Shown in pieces: positions 3,974-15,680 of a DNA stretch of 33,313 nucleotides. This DNA comes from an uncultured Clostridia bacterium. Lineage in GTDB: Bacteria > Bacillota > Clostridia > Christensenellales > Borkfalkiaceae. Position 1 is the stretch's first letter; the number at the start of each line of letters is the position of its first letter. The stretch covers positions 1-33,313 of the forward strand of contig CANQHG010000018.1 in NCBI GenBank assembly GCA_947623655.1, given 5' to 3'. The translations under genes and the position numbers were made by a program. Under the pieces are notes generated by a model. That model ran no database searches, was not told the DNA's origin, and worked only from the letters and a program-made list of their open reading frames with translations.

Positions 3974-5397
3974 CTCTGTTCCTCCTTATTCTCCGATCTG
4001 TAGAGCGGAAATTCCACCCAAAAACAGCTCCCCTTTCCCACTTCGGAAATGACTCCGAACGGAATATCGTGCTGTAATAATATATTCTTTACAATGGAGA
4101 GCCCGAGGCCCGACCCGCGGACGGGACGCTTGTGCGTGCTCTCCGAGCGGTAATATCTGTCCCAGATGGTGTCCACTTCGTCGGGGGGGATCCCCTTGCC
4201 CGAATCGATGACTTCAAGTCTCGCCCAACGGCCGTCTTTTTCGGTGAGTTTGACGCGTACGCGCTTGTCTTCTCCCGTATAATTGACGGCGTTGCCGACA
4301 AGATTATAGACGACCTGCCCGATACGGCTCCTATCGGCCCGTACGACGAGCCCCTCATCGATGACCGTCTCGATCTTGTAACCCTGCGTTTCGCCGAGAT
4401 AGTCGAAACGGGAGAGGATGCCGCCGACTTCTTCCGAAAGATCGAACACAGTCCGCTCCTCGGCGCCGCCCGCTCTGAGTTTGGAAAGATCGAGGACATC
4501 GGAAACGAGGGCCGTCAGTCTGTCCGTCTCGTCGATGATGATCTGCGCGTGGGCGTCCCGCTTCTCTTTGTTATCCCCCGAGATCTCCAAAATCATGGAC
4601 GCATAAGCCTTGATCATGGTGAGCGGCGTCTTGAAATCATGCGAGACGTTGGCGATGAGTTCGCGCTGGACCCGTTCTGCCTTGGAGATCTCCGAACGGG
4701 CATGATCGAGCGCTTCCGAGAGTTCCTCGATCTCCGAAAAGAAGTGATCTTTTTTGATCTCGAGCGCATAGTTCCCCCGCGCCAGCTCCTTGGCTTCCTC
4801 GGTAACTTCCGCAACGGGCCGCGCGATGAGCGCAGAGAGAAGTCCGCCGACCGCAAATGCGGCGACGACGGCAGAGAGCGAAGCGATCAGGGAAATGTAG
4901 CCGAAACCGCTTTGGTATGCGTCGATGGGCGCAAGGGACATTGTGAGATACAGTCTGCACGCCCTTCCGCCGACCGTGAGCGCGTCGCCGTAGACGATCT
5001 CCCCCGCATCTTTGTCGCAAACGGGTTCGTTTTTTTCGGAGAGCGCTTCCGTGTAGACATCGAGGCTTTGCAATGTACGCGCCTCCCCGACGTAAGCCAC
5101 AACGCTGTTTTCCTCTTCGTAGGCGAGATATACCCCGCCGACTCCGTAGCGGTAGGCAACCGCGTCGATCTCCGCGTCCGAACCCGCCGCAATATACGAA
5201 ACGATCTCTTCCTCGGCGCTCATAAGATTGGAACTCGCCCTGTTTAAAAACGTCTTGGCGGCGAGGGAATGATACATCGCCGTGAGCGCGAGAATGAGGG
5301 CGAATGCGAAGAGAGAAAACACGAGCCAAAGCACGATGTTCAGACTGCGCAGCGCCCTGAACTTCTTTTTTTGAGTTTTACCGCTTTTTGTTTGCAT
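3970..5397 (-). CDS. Sensor histidine kinase, PhoR/ResE-like with HAMP
   Basis: A 475-residue membrane kinase. A basic N-terminus leads into a membrane span (about 21-45). An extracellular sensor region of roughly 120 residues follows, then a second span (about 168-195), a HAMP linker (ARPVAEVTEEAKELARGNY) and a dimerisation domain with phospho-acceptor H253 in NVSHDFKTPL. The ATP-binding domain shows the N box (YNLVGNAVNYT), G1 (DSGKGIP), F box (DRYYRSE) and G2 (GSGLGLSIVK). It starts eight bases after the response regulator and overlaps the surface-protein gene by four. It should phosphorylate the regulator encoded just upstream. The stimulus is unknown. Confidence 0.95.
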   Translation of the reverse strand: MQTKSGKTQKKKFRALRSLNIVLWLVFSLFAFALILALTAMYHSLAAKTFLNRASSNLMSAEEEIVSYIAAGSDAEIDAVAYRYGVGGVYLAYEEENSVVAYVGEARTLQSLDVYTEALSEKNEPVCDKDAGEIVYGDALTVGGRACRLYLTMSLAPIDAYQSGFGYISLIASLSAVVAAFAVGGLLSALIARPVAEVTEEAKELARGNYALEIKKDHFFSEIEELSEALDHARSEISKAERVQRELIANVSHDFKTPLTMIKAYASMILEISGDNKEKRDAHAQIIIDETDRLTALVSDVLDLSKLRAGGAEERTVFDLSEEVGGILSRFDYLGETQGYKIETVIDEGLVVRADRSRIGQVVYNLVGNAVNYTGEDKRVRVKLTEKDGRWARLEVIDSGKGIPPDEVDTIWDRYYRSESTHKRPVRGSGLGLSIVKNILLQHDIPFGVISEVGKGSCFWVEFPLYRSENKEEQR

Positions 5398-6143: not shown

Positions 6144-6409
6144 TCTCTCACTTTTTTATATTGTAGCATATGCGGGACATTTTTGCAAGCCCACACTCGC
6201 GGCCATTTAAAATCCTTGGAATTACCCCCCCTCAGTCACCTGCGGTGACGGCTCCCCCTCAAGGGGGAGGCTTTAGCAAGGCGTGCCGTGCGCATGCTCC
6301 TCGCCCCGCGAGATTCTGCGGAATCGCCCCCGTACCCTCTATGAACTCTGTGGCTCAGAATGACGCGGGGCGAGGGTGAGCGGGGGGGATAAAAATTACA
6401 AACAAACGT
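6144..6409. repeat. Divergent intergenic region carrying two foldback repeats
   Basis: No gene is supported here. One element at 6230-6271 consists of GTCACC-TGC-GGTGAC (6235-6249) next to CTCCCCC-TCAA-GGGGGAG (6252-6269). A second at 6299-6375 is a long hairpin: 12-base outer arms CCTCGCCCCGCG and CGCGGGGCGAGG, a two-by-two internal loop, then ATTCT (6313-6317) pairing with AGAAT (6357-6361). The second belongs to the same family as the units at 428-619 and 25943-26076. It lies upstream of both neighbouring genes, so it is not a terminator for either. Confidence 0.75.
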
Positions 6410-6438
6410 TTGACAAGGGGCAAATGATGTGCTATAAT
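6410..6438 (+). promoter_or_regulatory. Promoter of the radical SAM gene
   Basis: Perfect TTGACA (6410-6415), 17-base spacer and perfect TATAAT (6433-6438). A 10-base palindrome, CAAACGTTTG (6403-6412), overlaps the -35 box. The predicted start point (6444-6447) falls on the ATG of the gene at 6445, implying a leaderless message. Confidence 0.88.
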
Positions 6439-6444
6439 GGAGGT

Positions 6445-7692
6445 ATGATCGACGAACGGACACTTATGATTCTCACGGAGAGCGCCAAATACGACGTCTC
6501 CTGTTCCTCTTCGGGAAGCGGCAGAAAGAATGAGGGCGGCATCGGAAACGGCTACGCCTCGGGGTGCTGTCACTCCTTTACGCCCGACGGACGGTGCATT
6601 TCTCTGCTCAAAATTCTGCTCTCCAACGATTGTATTTATAACTGTAAGTACTGTCTCAACCGCCGTGACAACGACCTTCCCCGCGCCACGGCGACGGCGG
6701 ACGACATCTGCGGCCTCGTGATGGATTTTTATAAGCGCAACTACATCGAAGGGCTCTTTCTCTCTTCCGCGGTGCACATTTCTCCCGACTACACGATGGA
6801 ACAGCTCTTCCTCGTCGCCAAGAAACTGCGCACGGAGTACAACTTTCACGGCTATATCCACGTGAAAGGCATTCCGCATGCGAGCATGGAGACCGTGCAA
6901 AAGACTGCTCTTTACGCGGACAGGATGAGCTTTAATATCGAGCTCCCCTCCGAGAGCAGTTTAAAGCTCCTTGCGCCGCAAAAGGACAGGCAGAGTCTGC
7001 TCGTCCCCATGGCGCAGTTGCAACGGGACAAGGAAATTTTTAAAGCGGAAAAGAGAAAAGGTCACTTTATCCCCGCGGGACAGACGACGCAGATGATCGT
7101 GGGCGCTTCGCCCGAAAAGGACGGCACGATCTTGCGGCTCTCGCAGGGTTTATATCGGAAAAAGGGTCTGAAACGGGTGTATTACTCCTCTTATGTGCCC
7201 GTAGTGCACGACAGTCTTCTGCCCGAGGTCGCGGGCGGGGCGCTGCGCGAGCACAGACTGTATCAGGCAGATTGGCTGCTCAGATTTTACGGGTTTGACG
7301 CCGAAGAGCTTCTTCCTGCCGACGGCGATCTTCCGACGGAATTCGACCCCAAGTGTGCATGGGCGCTTGCGCATATGGAACTTTTTCCCGTGGAGATCAA
7401 CCGTGCTCCGCTCGAAACCCTTCTTCGGGTCCCCGGGATCGGCGCGAGAGGCGCGCAACGCATCTGCAATGCGAGGTGGTATACGAAACTGACGTTTGAA
7501 CATCTCAAAAAAATGCGCATTGTATTAAAGCGGGCGAGGCATTTCATTACGGTGGGCGGAAAATTTTACGGCGCCGCGGAAACGGCCGTGCGTGGACTGC
7601 TTTCCGCCGAAGAGTCGCGCGCGAACGCGACGCAACTCAGTCTGTTTTCGATGAATGAGATCGCCCTTTCGGCGCTCACGGGAGAACTATGA
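6445..7692 (+). CDS. Putative DNA modification/repair radical SAM protein (TIGR03916-type)
   Basis: A 415-residue radical SAM enzyme of the family that travels with a DUF4130 protein and has been tentatively linked to DNA modification or repair; its reaction is unknown. The 4Fe-4S/SAM motif is C63-x3-C67-x2-C70. The family N-terminus (KYDVSCSSSGS, with C20) and further cysteines C41, C42 and C51 are present. Residues 316-345 form a helix-hairpin-helix (LLRVPGIGARGAQRIC), a non-specific DNA-binding motif. Near the C-terminus, residues 397-401 read QLSLF, a perfect match to the bacterial sliding-clamp binding consensus QL[SD]LF. ATG 6445 was chosen because family members begin a few residues before this conserved segment; upstream in-frame ATGs lie within the promoter. 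The stop overlaps the next gene's start (ATGA). Confidence 0.9.
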   Translation: MIDERTLMILTESAKYDVSCSSSGSGRKNEGGIGNGYASGCCHSFTPDGRCISLLKILLSNDCIYNCKYCLNRRDNDLPRATATADDICGLVMDFYKRNYIEGLFLSSAVHISPDYTMEQLFLVAKKLRTEYNFHGYIHVKGIPHASMETVQKTALYADRMSFNIELPSESSLKLLAPQKDRQSLLVPMAQLQRDKEIFKAEKRKGHFIPAGQTTQMIVGASPEKDGTILRLSQGLYRKKGLKRVYYSSYVPVVHDSLLPEVAGGALREHRLYQADWLLRFYGFDAEELLPADGDLPTEFDPKCAWALAHMELFPVEINRAPLETLLRVPGIGARGAQRICNARWYTKLTFEHLKKMRIVLKRARHFITVGGKFYGAAETAVRGLLSAEESRANATQLSLFSMNEIALSALTGEL

Positions 7693-8459
7693 TCTATTTT
7701 TACGACGGCACGCAAGAGGCGTTTTTAACGGCGCTTACCCTCTCTTTTCACGACGGCGAACCCTTTCTGACGTCGGGGAACAAACAGCTTGTCCTCGGTC
7801 AGGAGACCGCGTTCGTGCGCGCCGATCCCGAAAAGGCGAAGCGCGTGGAAAAGCGGCTCCTCTCCTTCGACAAAGACTGCATGCACGATCTCGATACGTT
7901 GTTGAGAAGCGGAGACGCCAATAAAGATAACGTGGCGCTCGTTTATTTTCGGCTGATCGCAGAAAAAAAGCGCCCCGTCCGCACGATGCTGGGCGAGGAC
8001 GCCGCGCTGGCCGCCGACGAATGTATACGGCGCGTCGGCTTTGAAGTGCACCGTTTCCACGGTTTTGTGCGCTTTTTACAGAGCGCGAGCGGGGCGCTCT
8101 ACGCCCCCATTTCCCCCGATAACGACATCTGCGACTTGCTCGTTCCCCATTTCCGCGCCCGTCTTCCGCAATATCCGTTCGTCATTCACGACGTAAAGCG
8201 CAAAAAGGCGGCCGTTTACGACGGGGAGCATACCTTTCCCGCCCCCCTCGAAGAGGCGGAAATTGTGCTTTCCGCAAATGAGGAAAAGTGGCAAAAACTG
8301 TGGATACGGTATTACGACAGTGTGAACATTCCCTCGCGCGAGCGGCTCAGACAGATGCGCGGCTACATGCCCGTGCGCTATTGGAAATTCATGCCCGAAA
8401 AGACGCGTCCCTTTACAGACGGCGAAGAAGGCGGAGGTGCTCCCTTTCCTCCTTCATGA
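7689..8459 (+). CDS. DUF4130 (TIGR03915-type) putative DNA metabolism protein
   Basis: A 256-residue protein of the DUF4130 family, the constant partner of the preceding radical SAM gene. In some bacteria this domain is fused to a uracil-DNA-glycosylase-superfamily domain; here there is no such fusion. It opens with a short strand (MIYFYDGTQEAFLTAL), and carries FHRFHGFVRF-like and DNDICDLLVPHFRARLP segments near residues 120-160. It ends with the characteristic WIRYYDSVNIPSRERLRQMR and MPVRYWKFM. It begins inside the radical SAM stop codon, which argues for coupled synthesis and probably a complex. Its last 47 bases overlap the convergent ferritin-like gene, but only the non-conserved tail is affected. 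The biochemical role is unknown. Confidence 0.88.
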   Translation: MIYFYDGTQEAFLTALTLSFHDGEPFLTSGNKQLVLGQETAFVRADPEKAKRVEKRLLSFDKDCMHDLDTLLRSGDANKDNVALVYFRLIAEKKRPVRTMLGEDAALAADECIRRVGFEVHRFHGFVRFLQSASGALYAPISPDNDICDLLVPHFRARLPQYPFVIHDVKRKKAAVYDGEHTFPAPLEEAEIVLSANEEKWQKLWIRYYDSVNIPSRERLRQMRGYMPVRYWKFMPEKTRPFTDGEEGGGAPFPPS

Positions 8460-8871
8460 GCGCGAGCACGACTTCCGCGGCGGCGGGATTTTCCATCTCT
8501 TTCAGCATGCCCGCGTAAGCCTCGGCCGACCGCTCTTCCGCCGCAATGTCCGCCTCGATCATTTCCGCCGTCTCCCGCGCATAATTGACGCACGACGCCG
8601 AGTAATACCCCACGGGATAGGGCGGACAGGCGGTATACACGGGCGGGGCGCCGAGACGGGTGATGAGAGCGCCGACCGTCTGCAAATGCCGCATTTCGTC
8701 GGAAGCGATGCGTTGGAGAAGCAGAGCGAGCTCCCTTTCCCCTCTCTGACCCAACAGGACGGATTGATAGACATATTGGAGCACGGAAGTGAGTTCGCCC
8801 TCCCTGCCCGCGTAGGCCTTTGTAACGATACGGAGTGTCCGCAGATCTTCCCCGACGCTTTCAAGCAACAT
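8413..8871 (-). CDS. Ferritin-like di-iron protein (rubrerythrin superfamily)
   Basis: A 152-residue four-helix-bundle protein. A plausible complete di-metal site is visible: E26 in helix 1 (GELTSVLQY), E59-x2-H62 in helix 2 (SDEMRHL), E112 or E113 in helix 3 (IAAEERSAEAY) and E142-x2-H145 in helix 4 (KEEREHL). The loop between helices 2 and 3 holds CPPYPVGYYSASC with two cysteines. There is no C-terminal rubredoxin domain, so it is not a classical rubrerythrin. Likely roles are oxidative-stress protection or metal handling, but the family is too broad to choose. The start has AGAGGGGGAAA upstream. The 3' end overlaps the convergent DUF4130 gene by 47 bases. Confidence 0.8.
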   Translation of the reverse strand: MLLESVGEDLRTLRIVTKAYAGREGELTSVLQYVYQSVLLGQRGERELALLLQRIASDEMRHLQTVGALITRLGAPPVYTACPPYPVGYYSASCVNYARETAEMIEADIAAEERSAEAYAGMLKEMENPAAAEVVLALMKEEREHLRLLRRL

Positions 8872-12293: not shown

Positions 12294-15200
12294 TCATGCA
12301 AAAGTTGAGGCAAATTTCAAAAATTTCGTCATCTGGACCATCGTTTTGCTCCCGTCGCCCATAAACGGAAAGGTCAGAGCGGGAGAAGTCGTCATTTCAA
12401 GACGGAATTTTCCCTTGAACGCTTCCATCGCCGCGGCGACTTTTTCGCTGCCGAGCGCGTCGAGCGAGGTAAACTCCAGCCTCCCCCCTTTGCCGTTTAC
12501 GCCCACTTTCTTTACGCCGAGCTTCATGGCGTAAGACTTCATGAGCGCGATGATGAGAAGGTTTAAAGTCTCTTTCGGCATCGGGCCGTAGCTCTCTTCC
12601 ATGGACGAGCATACCCGCCTGTAGTCGGCGGCGCCTCGTATTTCGGCGATCTGCTTGTAACAATCCATGCGGCCCGCGTTGGACTCGACGTACGATTCGG
12701 GGATAAAAGCAGTCGCCTTGACGTCGAGCTCCACGTTCTCCTGTCTGACGCCCGTGAGCTCCTCTTTGAGAATCTTTGCGTACAGCTCGTAGCCCACTTT
12801 GTCCATGTGCCCGTGCTGTTCTGCGCCGAGGACGTTGCCCGCGCCGCGGATCTCGAGGTCGCGCATGGCGATCCTGAAGCCTGAACCGAGCTCGGTGAAC
12901 TGCATGATCGCCTTGAGCCGCTCGGAGGCGTTCTCCGTCATGATCCGCTCGGGCTTATAGGTAAAATAGGCGTGGGCAAGGCGGGAACTTCTGCCGACAC
13001 GTCCGCGCAGTTGATATAGCTGGGAGATGCCAAGCCTGTCGGCATCGATGACGACGAGCGTGTTCGCGTTGGGAAGATCGATGCCGTTCTCGATGATGGT
13101 GGTCGTGACGAGCACGTCGTATTCTCCGCGATAGAAGCCGAAAACGCTCTTTTCGAGGACGTTTCTGTCCATTCTGCCGTGAGCGACGCAAATTTTTGCC
13201 TCGGGAACGATCTCCGAAAGCCGCGCCGCAAAGGCGTGAATGGTCTCTACTCTGTTGTAGAGCACGAAGATCTGCCCGCCGCGGGCGATCTCTCTGAGGC
13301 ATGCGTCCCGAAGAAGGGTCTCCGTTTCCTCGGCGACGTATGTCTGCACGGGCAGCCGCGCGTGGGGCGGAGTCTGGATCGTGGAGATATCGCGGATCCC
13401 CGAGAGGGAGAGATGCAACGTCCTCGGAATGGGAGTCGCCGTCATCGTGAGGCAGTCGACGTCCCGCTTGTAGTTCTTGATCTTTTCCTTATGTTCCACG
13501 CCGAAGCGCTGTTCTTCGTCGAGAATGAGGAGCCCGAGGTCGCGGAACCTGACGTCGGAAGAGAGCAGCCTGTGAGTGCCGATAATGAGGTCTATCGTGC
13601 CGTTTGCAAGCTCGGAAAGCGTCTTTGCGACCTCTTTGTCGGTGCGGAATCGGTTTAAACAGGCGACGCGGACGCCGAATTCTTTCATACGGTCGAGAGC
13701 CGTACGATAGTGCTGTTCGGAGAGCACCGTACTCGGACACATGAGCGCGGCCTGTCGGCCCGCCAGAATACAGAGATAGGCGGCGCGGAGAGCGACTTCC
13801 GTCTTGCCGAAGCCGACGTCCCCCACGAGAAGTCTGTCCATGACCTTTGTGGAACACATGTCCTCTTTGATCTCTTCGAAAGAAGTCGTTTGGTCGGGCG
13901 TGTCTTCATAGGGAAAGGCGGCGATAAATTCGTCCATGAGATCAGGATACTCGGGGAAGGCGTATCCCCTTTTCTCCTGCCGCTCGGCATAGAGCGCTTT
14001 CAGGTCGAAAGCCATCTTTTTGAGGGAAGCGCGGACCCGCGCCTTTACGCGCTCGAACTCTCCGCCGCCGATCTTGGAGAGAACGGGCGAGTCCCCGCCC
14101 ATATATTTGGACAGAATGTCCATGTTTTCGACGGGCACATACAGAGTATCGCCGTCCTTGTATTCGAGGGCGATATATTCCTTGGTGCCGTCCGTCGTCT
14201 CTATCTTTTTTGTGCCCGTGATGCGGCCGACGCCGTATGTCTCGTGCACGGCGTAGTCTCCCACTTCGGGCGCGACGAACAGGTCTCCCCGCTTCTTTTT
14301 GATACGTCTCTCTTTGACCGCCTTGGTAAAGAGGTCGCCCGTGCCGATGACGGCGAGCTTGACGTCGTGCACCAAAAAACCGTGAGCGAGAGAGTCGGGA
14401 AGAAAAACGACGCCTCTGAGATCTTCGAGCCTCTCCGTGACGGGAGAAAGAGGAAGCGCGAACGGCGAAAGTGCTTCTTTCAGTTTTTCCGCGCGCTCGC
14501 CGCTGCCGCAGAAGAGCATGACGCGGTAGCCCGTTTGGCTCCATGCCTTAAGGTCGACGGCAAGGTCGTTTACGGAATTGAGATACCGCCTGACCGGCGT
14601 CGTCTTGTAGTTGTAGATCCTGAGGGGATTGGTGAGAAAAGGGTTGCCCGTAAAAGTCTGTAAAGTGAGCGTTCGGTATGCGGTGAGACGGGCGATATGA
14701 TCGAACGGAATGTATTGGTCGATGGAGCAAGGCAATGCCTCACCCCCCTCCAAAAGGAGTTTCACCCGCTCGGCGTGTTCGCGGTAAAGCCCCTCGAGCT
14801 TGTCGCGGATGAGTTTCCCCTCGTCCGGAATGACGAGCGCGTCCCCTGCCAGATCCTTTAAAAATTCCCCCGTTCCCGCAAGAAGCGGCAAGACGAATTC
14901 GGACTGAAATCCCGCCAGCGCGATCTCTTCGGCTATCTCCTGCATGCGGGATCGGGCAGAGACGGGAAGACGGGCGATCTGCTCTCTGAGTTTTTCGCTC
15001 ACGGCCGCCGCCTCCCCCTCGCAGAGAAGCGCGTCTGTTGCCGCAACGATATCGGTGCGGGCGAGCTTGTCGTAACGTTCCCCTGACTCCTCGTCGTAGG
15101 GCTTGATCGCCTCTACTTCGTCGCCGAAAAAGTCGATGCGCATCGGGTGCGGCGCGTTGACGGGCCAGATATCGAGAATGTCACCTCTTACGGAGAACGC

Positions 15201-15680
15201 TCCCCTGCCGTCTACGGCGTATTCCCGTTGGTAACCTGCCTGCGCAAGCTGCGCAACGAGCGCCTGCATCTCCGTTTCCATGCCCGTCTCGAGATGAAAG
15301 ACGCGCAATGCTTTGGGAACGGGCTGAACGAGCGCTTCCACGTCGCAAACGAGGATATCCGCCCCATTTTGCCACTCGTAGAGGGCGGTGAGGCGGCGGT
15401 AGAGAGCGTCTTTGGAGCCCGCCCTGCGGTAGAGAAGCACTTCATCCTTTGCGGGAAACAAGACGGTCTTTTTCCCCGAGAGGACGGCGATCGCTTCATA
15501 CGCGCGCTTTGCGGAGAGCGCGTCCGCCGTGATATAGACGGTGCGTCCCTCGGAAAGGGCGGCGATGAGATATTTCGTCTCGTCCGGAACGCCGAAAACC
15601 GCCGAGGGGATCCCTTGGCGGATACTTTCTCTGAGGAGCGAAAATTCGCCCCCTAAGTTTTCGTACGAGAAAAAACTCAT
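12294..15680 (-). CDS. mfd: Transcription-repair coupling factor Mfd
   Basis: A 1128-residue DNA translocase that removes RNA polymerase stalled at lesions and recruits UvrA. Domain order matches the family: a UvrB-like N-terminal region (residues 1-300, with GAFSVRGDILDIWP), the RNA-polymerase-interacting domain (about 470-540, VGDYAVHETYGVGRI), then the helicase motor. The motor has Walker A GDVGFGKT near 618-625, the DEEQ box near 720, TATPIPRTLH and the translocation motif region with QLRGRVGRS. A C-terminal TRCF domain closes it. Length is typical. It starts inside the pth stop codon (four-base overlap), so the two are coupled. Confidence 0.98.
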   Translation of the reverse strand: MSFFSYENLGGEFSLLRESIRQGIPSAVFGVPDETKYLIAALSEGRTVYITADALSAKRAYEAIAVLSGKKTVLFPAKDEVLLYRRAGSKDALYRRLTALYEWQNGADILVCDVEALVQPVPKALRVFHLETGMETEMQALVAQLAQAGYQREYAVDGRGAFSVRGDILDIWPVNAPHPMRIDFFGDEVEAIKPYDEESGERYDKLARTDIVAATDALLCEGEAAAVSEKLREQIARLPVSARSRMQEIAEEIALAGFQSEFVLPLLAGTGEFLKDLAGDALVIPDEGKLIRDKLEGLYREHAERVKLLLEGGEALPCSIDQYIPFDHIARLTAYRTLTLQTFTGNPFLTNPLRIYNYKTTPVRRYLNSVNDLAVDLKAWSQTGYRVMLFCGSGERAEKLKEALSPFALPLSPVTERLEDLRGVVFLPDSLAHGFLVHDVKLAVIGTGDLFTKAVKERRIKKKRGDLFVAPEVGDYAVHETYGVGRITGTKKIETTDGTKEYIALEYKDGDTLYVPVENMDILSKYMGGDSPVLSKIGGGEFERVKARVRASLKKMAFDLKALYAERQEKRGYAFPEYPDLMDEFIAAFPYEDTPDQTTSFEEIKEDMCSTKVMDRLLVGDVGFGKTEVALRAAYLCILAGRQAALMCPSTVLSEQHYRTALDRMKEFGVRVACLNRFRTDKEVAKTLSELANGTIDLIIGTHRLLSSDVRFRDLGLLILDEEQRFGVEHKEKIKNYKRDVDCLTMTATPIPRTLHLSLSGIRDISTIQTPPHARLPVQTYVAEETETLLRDACLREIARGGQIFVLYNRVETIHAFAARLSEIVPEAKICVAHGRMDRNVLEKSVFGFYRGEYDVLVTTTIIENGIDLPNANTLVVIDADRLGISQLYQLRGRVGRSSRLAHAYFTYKPERIMTENASERLKAIMQFTELGSGFRIAMRDLEIRGAGNVLGAEQHGHMDKVGYELYAKILKEELTGVRQENVELDVKATAFIPESYVESNAGRMDCYKQIAEIRGAADYRRVCSSMEESYGPMPKETLNLLIIALMKSYAMKLGVKKVGVNGKGGRLEFTSLDALGSEKVAAAMEAFKGKFRLEMTTSPALTFPFMGDGSKTMVQMTKFLKFASTFA

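Follow-up and report, generated by a model that had tools for sequence, protein, structure and literature searches.

A two-gene radical SAM/DUF4130 unit with a predicted sliding-clamp motif and LexA-type promoter boxes

What might a radical S-adenosylmethionine (SAM) protein and its DUF4130 partner do to DNA, and what would bring them there? The question is raised by two adjacent genes on contig CANQHG010000018.1 of an uncultured Clostridia bacterium (draft genome of 1.66 Mb); the 33,313 nucleotides (nt) of this stretch constitute the window analysed here. Of 299 genomes sampled from its phylum 67 have the pair, which occurs in other phyla too, yet no report assigning it a function was found in the open-access literature. 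Its main elements are:

6445..7692, + strand: radical SAM gene, 415 amino acids, family TIGR03916 (rSAM_link_UDG)
7689..8459, + strand: DUF4130/TIGR03915 partner gene, 256 amino acids, sharing an ATGA overlap with the radical SAM gene
7633..7647, + strand: QLSLF, predicted sliding-clamp (DnaN) binding motif, residues 397-401 in the disordered tail of the radical SAM protein

Both proteins belong to named but uncharacterised families, whose members are adjacent and co-occur, and score well over the curated cut-offs. The radical SAM protein reaches 561.8 bits with TIGR03916 (cut-off 343.5, E 1e-168); its partner reaches 181.1 bits with TIGR03915 (cut-off 112.25, E 3e-53) and 139.6 bits with DUF4130 (cut-off 27, E 1e-40). 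The features described below, namely the clamp-type motif, the additional cysteines and the LexA boxes of Bacillota, go beyond the one-line descriptions of TIGR03916 and TIGR03915 and do not contradict membership. A preliminary description of this DNA, made from its letters alone, had given the coordinates, the reading frames and the ATGA overlap (7689-7692) correctly.

That description suggested that the pair could be a clamp-associated DNA repair or modification system, a reading that the present analysis supports at the level of sequence. We consider it probable that the two genes form an autonomous, SOS-induced unit of radical DNA repair, recruited by the clamp through the QLSLF tether and equipped with a helix-hairpin-helix and a DUF4130 partner. 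The support comes from the conservation of the motif, the disorder of the tail, the LexA boxes, the co-occurrence of the two genes and the radical SAM fold. The clamp-type peptide and the LexA boxes turn a putative DNA modification or repair function into testable statements: the enzyme would operate on DNA loaded with the clamp, during the SOS response, and together with DUF4130 and in some cases UdgX.

The QLSLF peptide of the radical SAM tail

We collected 197 homologues: 61 loci from a genome search, 80 of the 579 confirmed relatives from a contig search, 40 further stretches, 15 plasmid or phage-collection records and the window. The plasmid records are 14 of the 158 with a match, hand-picked for spread among the 30 listed. 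Because some members of this set are nearly identical (L001, for one, is the locus of the window itself), the conclusions rest on representatives below 70% identity. There are 74 of these, or 73 after leaving out a partial second copy (L155); L187 was retained among the 73 despite an apparently out-of-frame N-terminus.

QLSLF stands at residues 397-401, with the position and letters first described, and is the sole match to Q[LM][SDTNE][LMIF][FLW] among the 128 stop-to-stop frames of at least 100 codons in the window. A credible tail motif occurs in 65 of the 74 representatives, as QL[SD]LF in 23, other pentapeptide forms in 37 and a hexapeptide form in 5; six more have a weak motif and three have none. 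Shuffled tails yield the pentapeptide in 1.4% and the hexapeptide in 0.4% of cases (1.8% together; 3.3% including weak forms). Protein-body segments of equal length contain no strong form and weak forms in 1.2%, and just 5 of the 189 partner proteins have one at any position. On these three comparisons a chance origin is rejected.

The most constant residue is Q397, kept in 72 of the 73 representatives, as against 73 of 73 for the radical SAM cysteines C63, C67 and C70. It is the only tail column past F367 to reach 95%, and it is invariant across 27 divergent sequences. In an alignment anchored on this glutamine, the next four positions are L in 60, S in 51, L in 45 and F in 55 of the 73. The entropy is 0-1.7 bits over the five motif positions and at least 3.1 bits in the flanks, a count in which Q is not independent evidence because of the anchoring. 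Counting the six-residue variant, the QLxLF-type motif is complete in 66 of the 73, against about 2% of shuffled tails, so that the check proposed beforehand, conservation of the pentapeptide beyond chance, came out in its favour.

The place of the motif varies. Between 0 and 40 residues follow it, at most one in 12 rows and none in 8 (72 rows, without L165, whose tail reads PMSLF), and pentapeptide and hexapeptide forms alternate across the representatives. It makes up the last five residues of all nine alphaproteobacterial copies fetched (QLSLF, QLTLF, QLSLL or QLQLL) and of both betaproteobacterial ones (QLSLI, QLSLL); the Bacteroides copy has QLLLDF and an Acinetobacter-derived copy QLSLGF. 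A peptide that is conserved yet shifts within a variable tail looks like a short linear motif under selection. In the AlphaFold2 model, residues 390-415 have a predicted local distance difference test (pLDDT) score below 50 and the motif is not buried, as expected of the exposed C-terminal tail proposed earlier; of the five models only the best is fair (mean pLDDT 75.9), the other four ranging from 67 to 55.

Bacterial proteins that bind the sliding clamp include polymerases, MutS, MutL and DinB, and hexapeptides are a known form of the clamp-binding peptide. Passages of PMC12309361 and PMC9690074 give the consensus as QL[S/D]LF, more broadly QxxLF. The window protein shares with such binders a conserved QLxLF/QLxLxF peptide in a flexible segment and is a predicted binder only; none of the clamp-binding proteins named in those passages is a radical SAM enzyme. 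In the open-access literature, too, no paper was found that connects radical SAM proteins with a clamp motif.

The DNA polymerase III alpha subunit of the host is of the DnaE type (1396.7 bits with NF005298, cut-off 1260), and a search of the host genome for PolC returned only stretches below the cut-off. This DnaE carries QMSLF at residue 1047 of a 1289-codon frame, a typical position for the clamp motifs of DnaE. The host clamp therefore probably reads QxxLF.

The tail motif might instead dock another protein, for instance DUF4130, and resemble a clamp peptide by convergence. A second conserved tail peptide suggests that the tail could have several binding partners:

7675..7689, + strand: conserved C-terminal peptide LTGEL, residues 411-415

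An LTG[EQ]L-like ending is found in 28 of 66 Bacillota representatives, in none of the 15 plasmid or phage-collection copies (one of which, L188, is a Bacillota plasmid record) and in none of the control open reading frames (ORFs), which are neighbours chosen by length and partly not real genes. The need to encode a ribosome site for the overlapping gene does not suffice to explain LTGEL, because 6 of the 28 have gene gaps of more than 12 nt and E alternates with Q. Against docking, the main motif fits the published consensus QL[S/D]LF or QxxLF (same passages, PMC12309361 and PMC9690074), and its variants match the spectrum of clamp peptides (QLxLF, QLSMF, QLSFF, QLSLW and the six-residue QLLLDF and QLSLGF). 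In addition, the 11 copies with a long partner (DUF4130 plus UdgX) retain it as their last five residues. We regard docking as distinctly unlikely and prefer a tether to the clamp.

LexA-type boxes and related SOS systems

The upstream region of the pair holds two overlapping elements:

6399..6412, + strand: LexA-type box CAAACAAACGTTTG with an AACN4GTT core, 46 nt upstream of the start codon
6410..6438, + strand: sigma-70-type promoter TTGACA-17-TATAAT; the LexA-type box lies over its -35

With its -10 ending 6 nt short of the ATG, the promoter is predicted to give a leaderless mRNA. Within the clade of the window, a TTGAC/TA-T promoter lies near the start in 77 of 81 loci and the -10 ends at most 8 nt from the ATG in 62 of 81, both counts being without a shuffled control.

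Of the 197 homologues, near-duplicates included, 150 have an AACN4GTT box no more than 200 bp from the start, compared with 5.3% of random stretches. Among Bacillota representatives, 43 of 65 have the box and 41 of 65 its strict form; the corresponding figures for regions upstream of neighbour ORFs are 3 and 0 of 223. All nine alphaproteobacterial loci carry GAACN7GAAC 17-39 nt from the start, and part of PMC12700426 gives GTTCN7GTTC as the LexA box type of Alphaproteobacteria.

The lexA gene of the host has its own box, GGAACATTTGTTTG, about 45 nt upstream (complement strand, L203); AACN4GTTTG is common to this box and that of the window, though not every base. By its promoter box of the host lexA type the pair is a predicted member of the LexA regulon and would be induced by DNA damage through RecA/LexA. 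Searching the whole genome with at most one mismatch gave 7 matches, the window box being the only perfect one, and 2 for the reversed pattern; this shows rarity and not independence, because the pattern was modelled on the family's own boxes. The LexA-type boxes, a point absent from the preliminary description, would link the pair to DNA damage. Two other host genes have such a box just upstream: L201, ATPase-like by eye, and L202, which contains another box within its own sequence and lies close to a recombinase-like frame.

We take COG4277 to be the TIGR03916 family. LexA control of a two-gene COG1573-COG4277 operon is described for Bacteroidetes in passages of PMC8565304, where Verrucomicrobia and Alphaproteobacteria are cited; the nine alphaproteobacterial loci in our set carry a LexA box as well. 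Compared with that operon, the partner in the window is without a uracil-DNA glycosylase (UDG) domain and the box is of Bacillota type. SOS control of the UDG-linked version is already in print, and to that extent the system is not undescribed, as had been suggested. For the clamp motif in the radical SAM protein no earlier report was found, and the passages of PMC8565304 do not name one. One radical SAM protein is LexA-regulated in Streptomyces (PMC9380542) and one belongs to a Gram-positive core LexA regulon (PMC7739468).

Another radical SAM enzyme of DNA repair, spore photoproduct lyase (SplB), is itself SOS-regulated in several species and forms a separate COG, COG1533 (passages of PMC8565304). 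Its regulation lends some weight to a reading in which the window protein directly reverses an ultraviolet or oxidative pyrimidine lesion in the manner of SplB, and does not act on uracil or abasic sites. By description, the window protein is set apart from SplB through its added helix-hairpin-helix, clamp-type motif and obligate-looking partner. No spore photoproduct lyase appears among the 50 fold matches listed, where absence excludes neither SplB nor other families. Direct reversal is possible, in our judgement, but doubtful.

The DUF4130 partner and its UdgX fusions

Among the 299 sampled genomes, 68 have the radical SAM gene (scored as present at a match of at least 330 bits), 68 have DUF4130 and 67 have both, out of 69 holding either. 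In four genomes (G196, G234, G426, G447) the two genes sit on separate contigs or at a long distance from each other, which shows that co-occurrence goes beyond adjacency. DUF4130 had been called an obligate partner; the co-occurrence is indeed nearly perfect, but the two need not be neighbours, at least four genomes having them apart. Outside the phylum, the genome of Caulobacter crescentus matches both families, over the cut-off for TIGR03915; for TIGR03916, two of the three control genomes with a match exceed the cut-off.

In alpha- and betaproteobacterial copies DUF4130 is fused to UdgX, whose crosslinking to abasic sites has, to our knowledge, no settled biological role. TIGR03914 and TIGR03915 both score over their cut-offs in the four long partners scanned (L182, L185, L192, L193), and a KRRxH-type loop is found in 8 of 11 long partners. 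The window partner matches DUF4130 and TIGR03915 only and does not have the UDG domain with a KRRIH-type crosslinking loop that defines UdgX; two UDG-domain matches occur elsewhere in its genome, none within the radical SAM/DUF4130 unit. UdgX crosslinks to an abasic site of its own making (passages of PMC10776899). The fusion makes uracil or abasic sites, where replication has stalled, the likeliest substrate class, which is our best guess from sequence.

DUF4130 has also been termed a predicted mutagenesis-related enzyme that "might modify thymines" (passage of PMC3765255). This favours base rewriting under SOS, that is DNA modification or mutagenesis, over repair. No conserved third gene was found near the pair (the next best family occurs in 8 of 73 loci), and SOS control with clamp recruitment fits repair equally well or better; we consider modification unlikely.

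The model of DUF4130 shows a coherent but weak fold similarity to DHH/DHHA1 proteins, without profile support, and a sequence profile search found no solved relative. DHH and GGGH are the catalytic motifs of the DHH/DHHA1 phosphoesterases; RecJ, Cdc45, NrnA and PAP phosphatase are proteins of the DHH/DHHA1 kind. An active DHH phosphoesterase was rejected, the DHH-type motif being present in 3 and the GGGH-type in 0 of 70 rows (3 of the 73 without a usable partner left out). Profile comparison with DHH proteins gave no similarity, covering 12 NrnA-like sequences but a single one on the RecJ side. A bolder version of the repair reading, to which we give little credence, would make this the first clamp-tethered radical SAM enzyme, in a bacterial pathway by which radical chemistry reaches stalled replication for repair, and DUF4130 a catalytically dead RecJ/Cdc45-like reader of single-stranded DNA. 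In the version with UdgX, this domain would capture the abasic site covalently, and the clamp-held radical enzyme would resolve or rebuild it, possibly by sacrificing a second Fe-S cluster in the way of lipoyl synthase.

Radical SAM core, proposed mechanism and surroundings

Three further elements were located in the radical SAM protein:

6631..6654, + strand: radical SAM motif C63-x3-C67-x2-C70, cysteines invariant in 73 of 73 representatives
6502..6597, + strand: candidate auxiliary Fe-S (or other metal) site C20/C42/C51, N-terminal to the radical SAM motif
7390..7476, + strand: helix-hairpin-helix, residues 316-344, HHH_3 match

The C-x3-C-x2-C motif is complete, as first noted, and lies in a partial TIM-barrel; the predicted model shows the radical SAM fold, which places the protein in the superfamily. 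C20, C42 and C51 are kept in 72, 71 and 72 of the 73 representatives and are candidates for an auxiliary cluster, in a region where the model is unreliable. The helix-hairpin-helix, previously put at residues 316-345, is seen at 316-344. It is supported by the best of seven PDB profile matches, a ComEA-related protein over this stretch; the only noteworthy matches are to the helix-hairpin-helix and, weakly, to radical SAM proteins. The core model resembles LipA, HydE, RlmN and viperin, radical SAM enzymes whose substrates are proteins, RNA or small molecules; this likeness would suit chemistry on RNA, a nucleotide or a protein with DNA binding incidental. The helix-hairpin-helix, the SOS boxes, the clamp-type motif and the UDG fusion all argue for DNA instead, and we find such chemistry very improbable.

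For a clamp-recruited repair unit, we propose the following course. DNA damage would inactivate LexA, freeing the box at 6399-6412, and both proteins would be made. The QLSLF peptide would recruit the radical SAM protein to DNA on which the sliding clamp is loaded, where its helix-hairpin-helix domain may hold the DNA. The [4Fe-4S] cluster and SAM would then generate a 5'-deoxyadenosyl radical at the damaged or abasic position, and the lesion would be repaired or remodelled. The part of DUF4130 may be to read or present the DNA. The UdgX fused to it in Alpha- and Betaproteobacteria would excise uracil and bond to the resulting abasic site. We infer here clamp binding, DNA as substrate, what DUF4130 and the additional cysteines do, and the identity of the lesion.

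Several observations weigh against this proposal. Six of the 73 representatives have I, V or T at motif position 2 and one has PMSLF; no clamp-type motif was found in the host MutS, used as a positive control. The HHH_3 match, at 19.9 bits (E 8e-4), is below the Pfam gathering score of 27. In one genome (G280, uncounted) the radical SAM gene is represented by fragments alone, the best at 75.5 bits, and DUF4130 is missing. The window box is a variant, CAAAC-N4-GTTTG, in which A replaces the G of the GAAC-N4-GTTC type. No box of the tested kind is present in 22 of 65 Bacillota representatives, among which one has masked upstream sequence and several have half-matching sites; the tested boxes were likewise found near the start neither in the single Bacteroides, Acinetobacter and Gemmatirosa loci nor in either of the two Betaproteobacteria. 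The motifs GAACnnnnGTTC and GAACnnnnGTTT, which are among those used for LexA in Clostridium difficile (passage of PMC4234289), have G where the window box has A. Finally, clamp peptides can bind weakly in Bacillus, according to passages of PMC12309361.

If the proposal is true, radical SAM chemistry would join the tool-belt of the clamp, and a job would be suggested for UdgX.

An anti-phage defence system was rejected, neither protein matching a PADLOC family at E 0.01. A phage-borne system found no support in the records covered: searching viral contigs with a divergent alignment gave two loci, and searching them with the protein of the window gave none. Ten phage-collection records have a match; of the four opened, one is a contig of ordinary bacterial genes and the other three are gut scaffolds that bear the label UNVERIFIED.

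In the window, a ferritin/rubrerythrin-like gene (8413-8871, - strand) is convergent with the pair and overlaps the 3' end of the DUF4130 gene; a frame over this position recurs in 4 of 73 loci. About 4 kb downstream, outside the unit, a gene for an Mfd-like transcription-repair coupling factor (12294-15680, - strand) stands beside one for peptidyl-tRNA hydrolase. In genome G186 (L145), a toxin-antitoxin-like pair at about 4230-4915 (- strand), PIN-like and ribbon-helix-helix-like as judged by eye, is placed between the radical SAM and DUF4130 genes.
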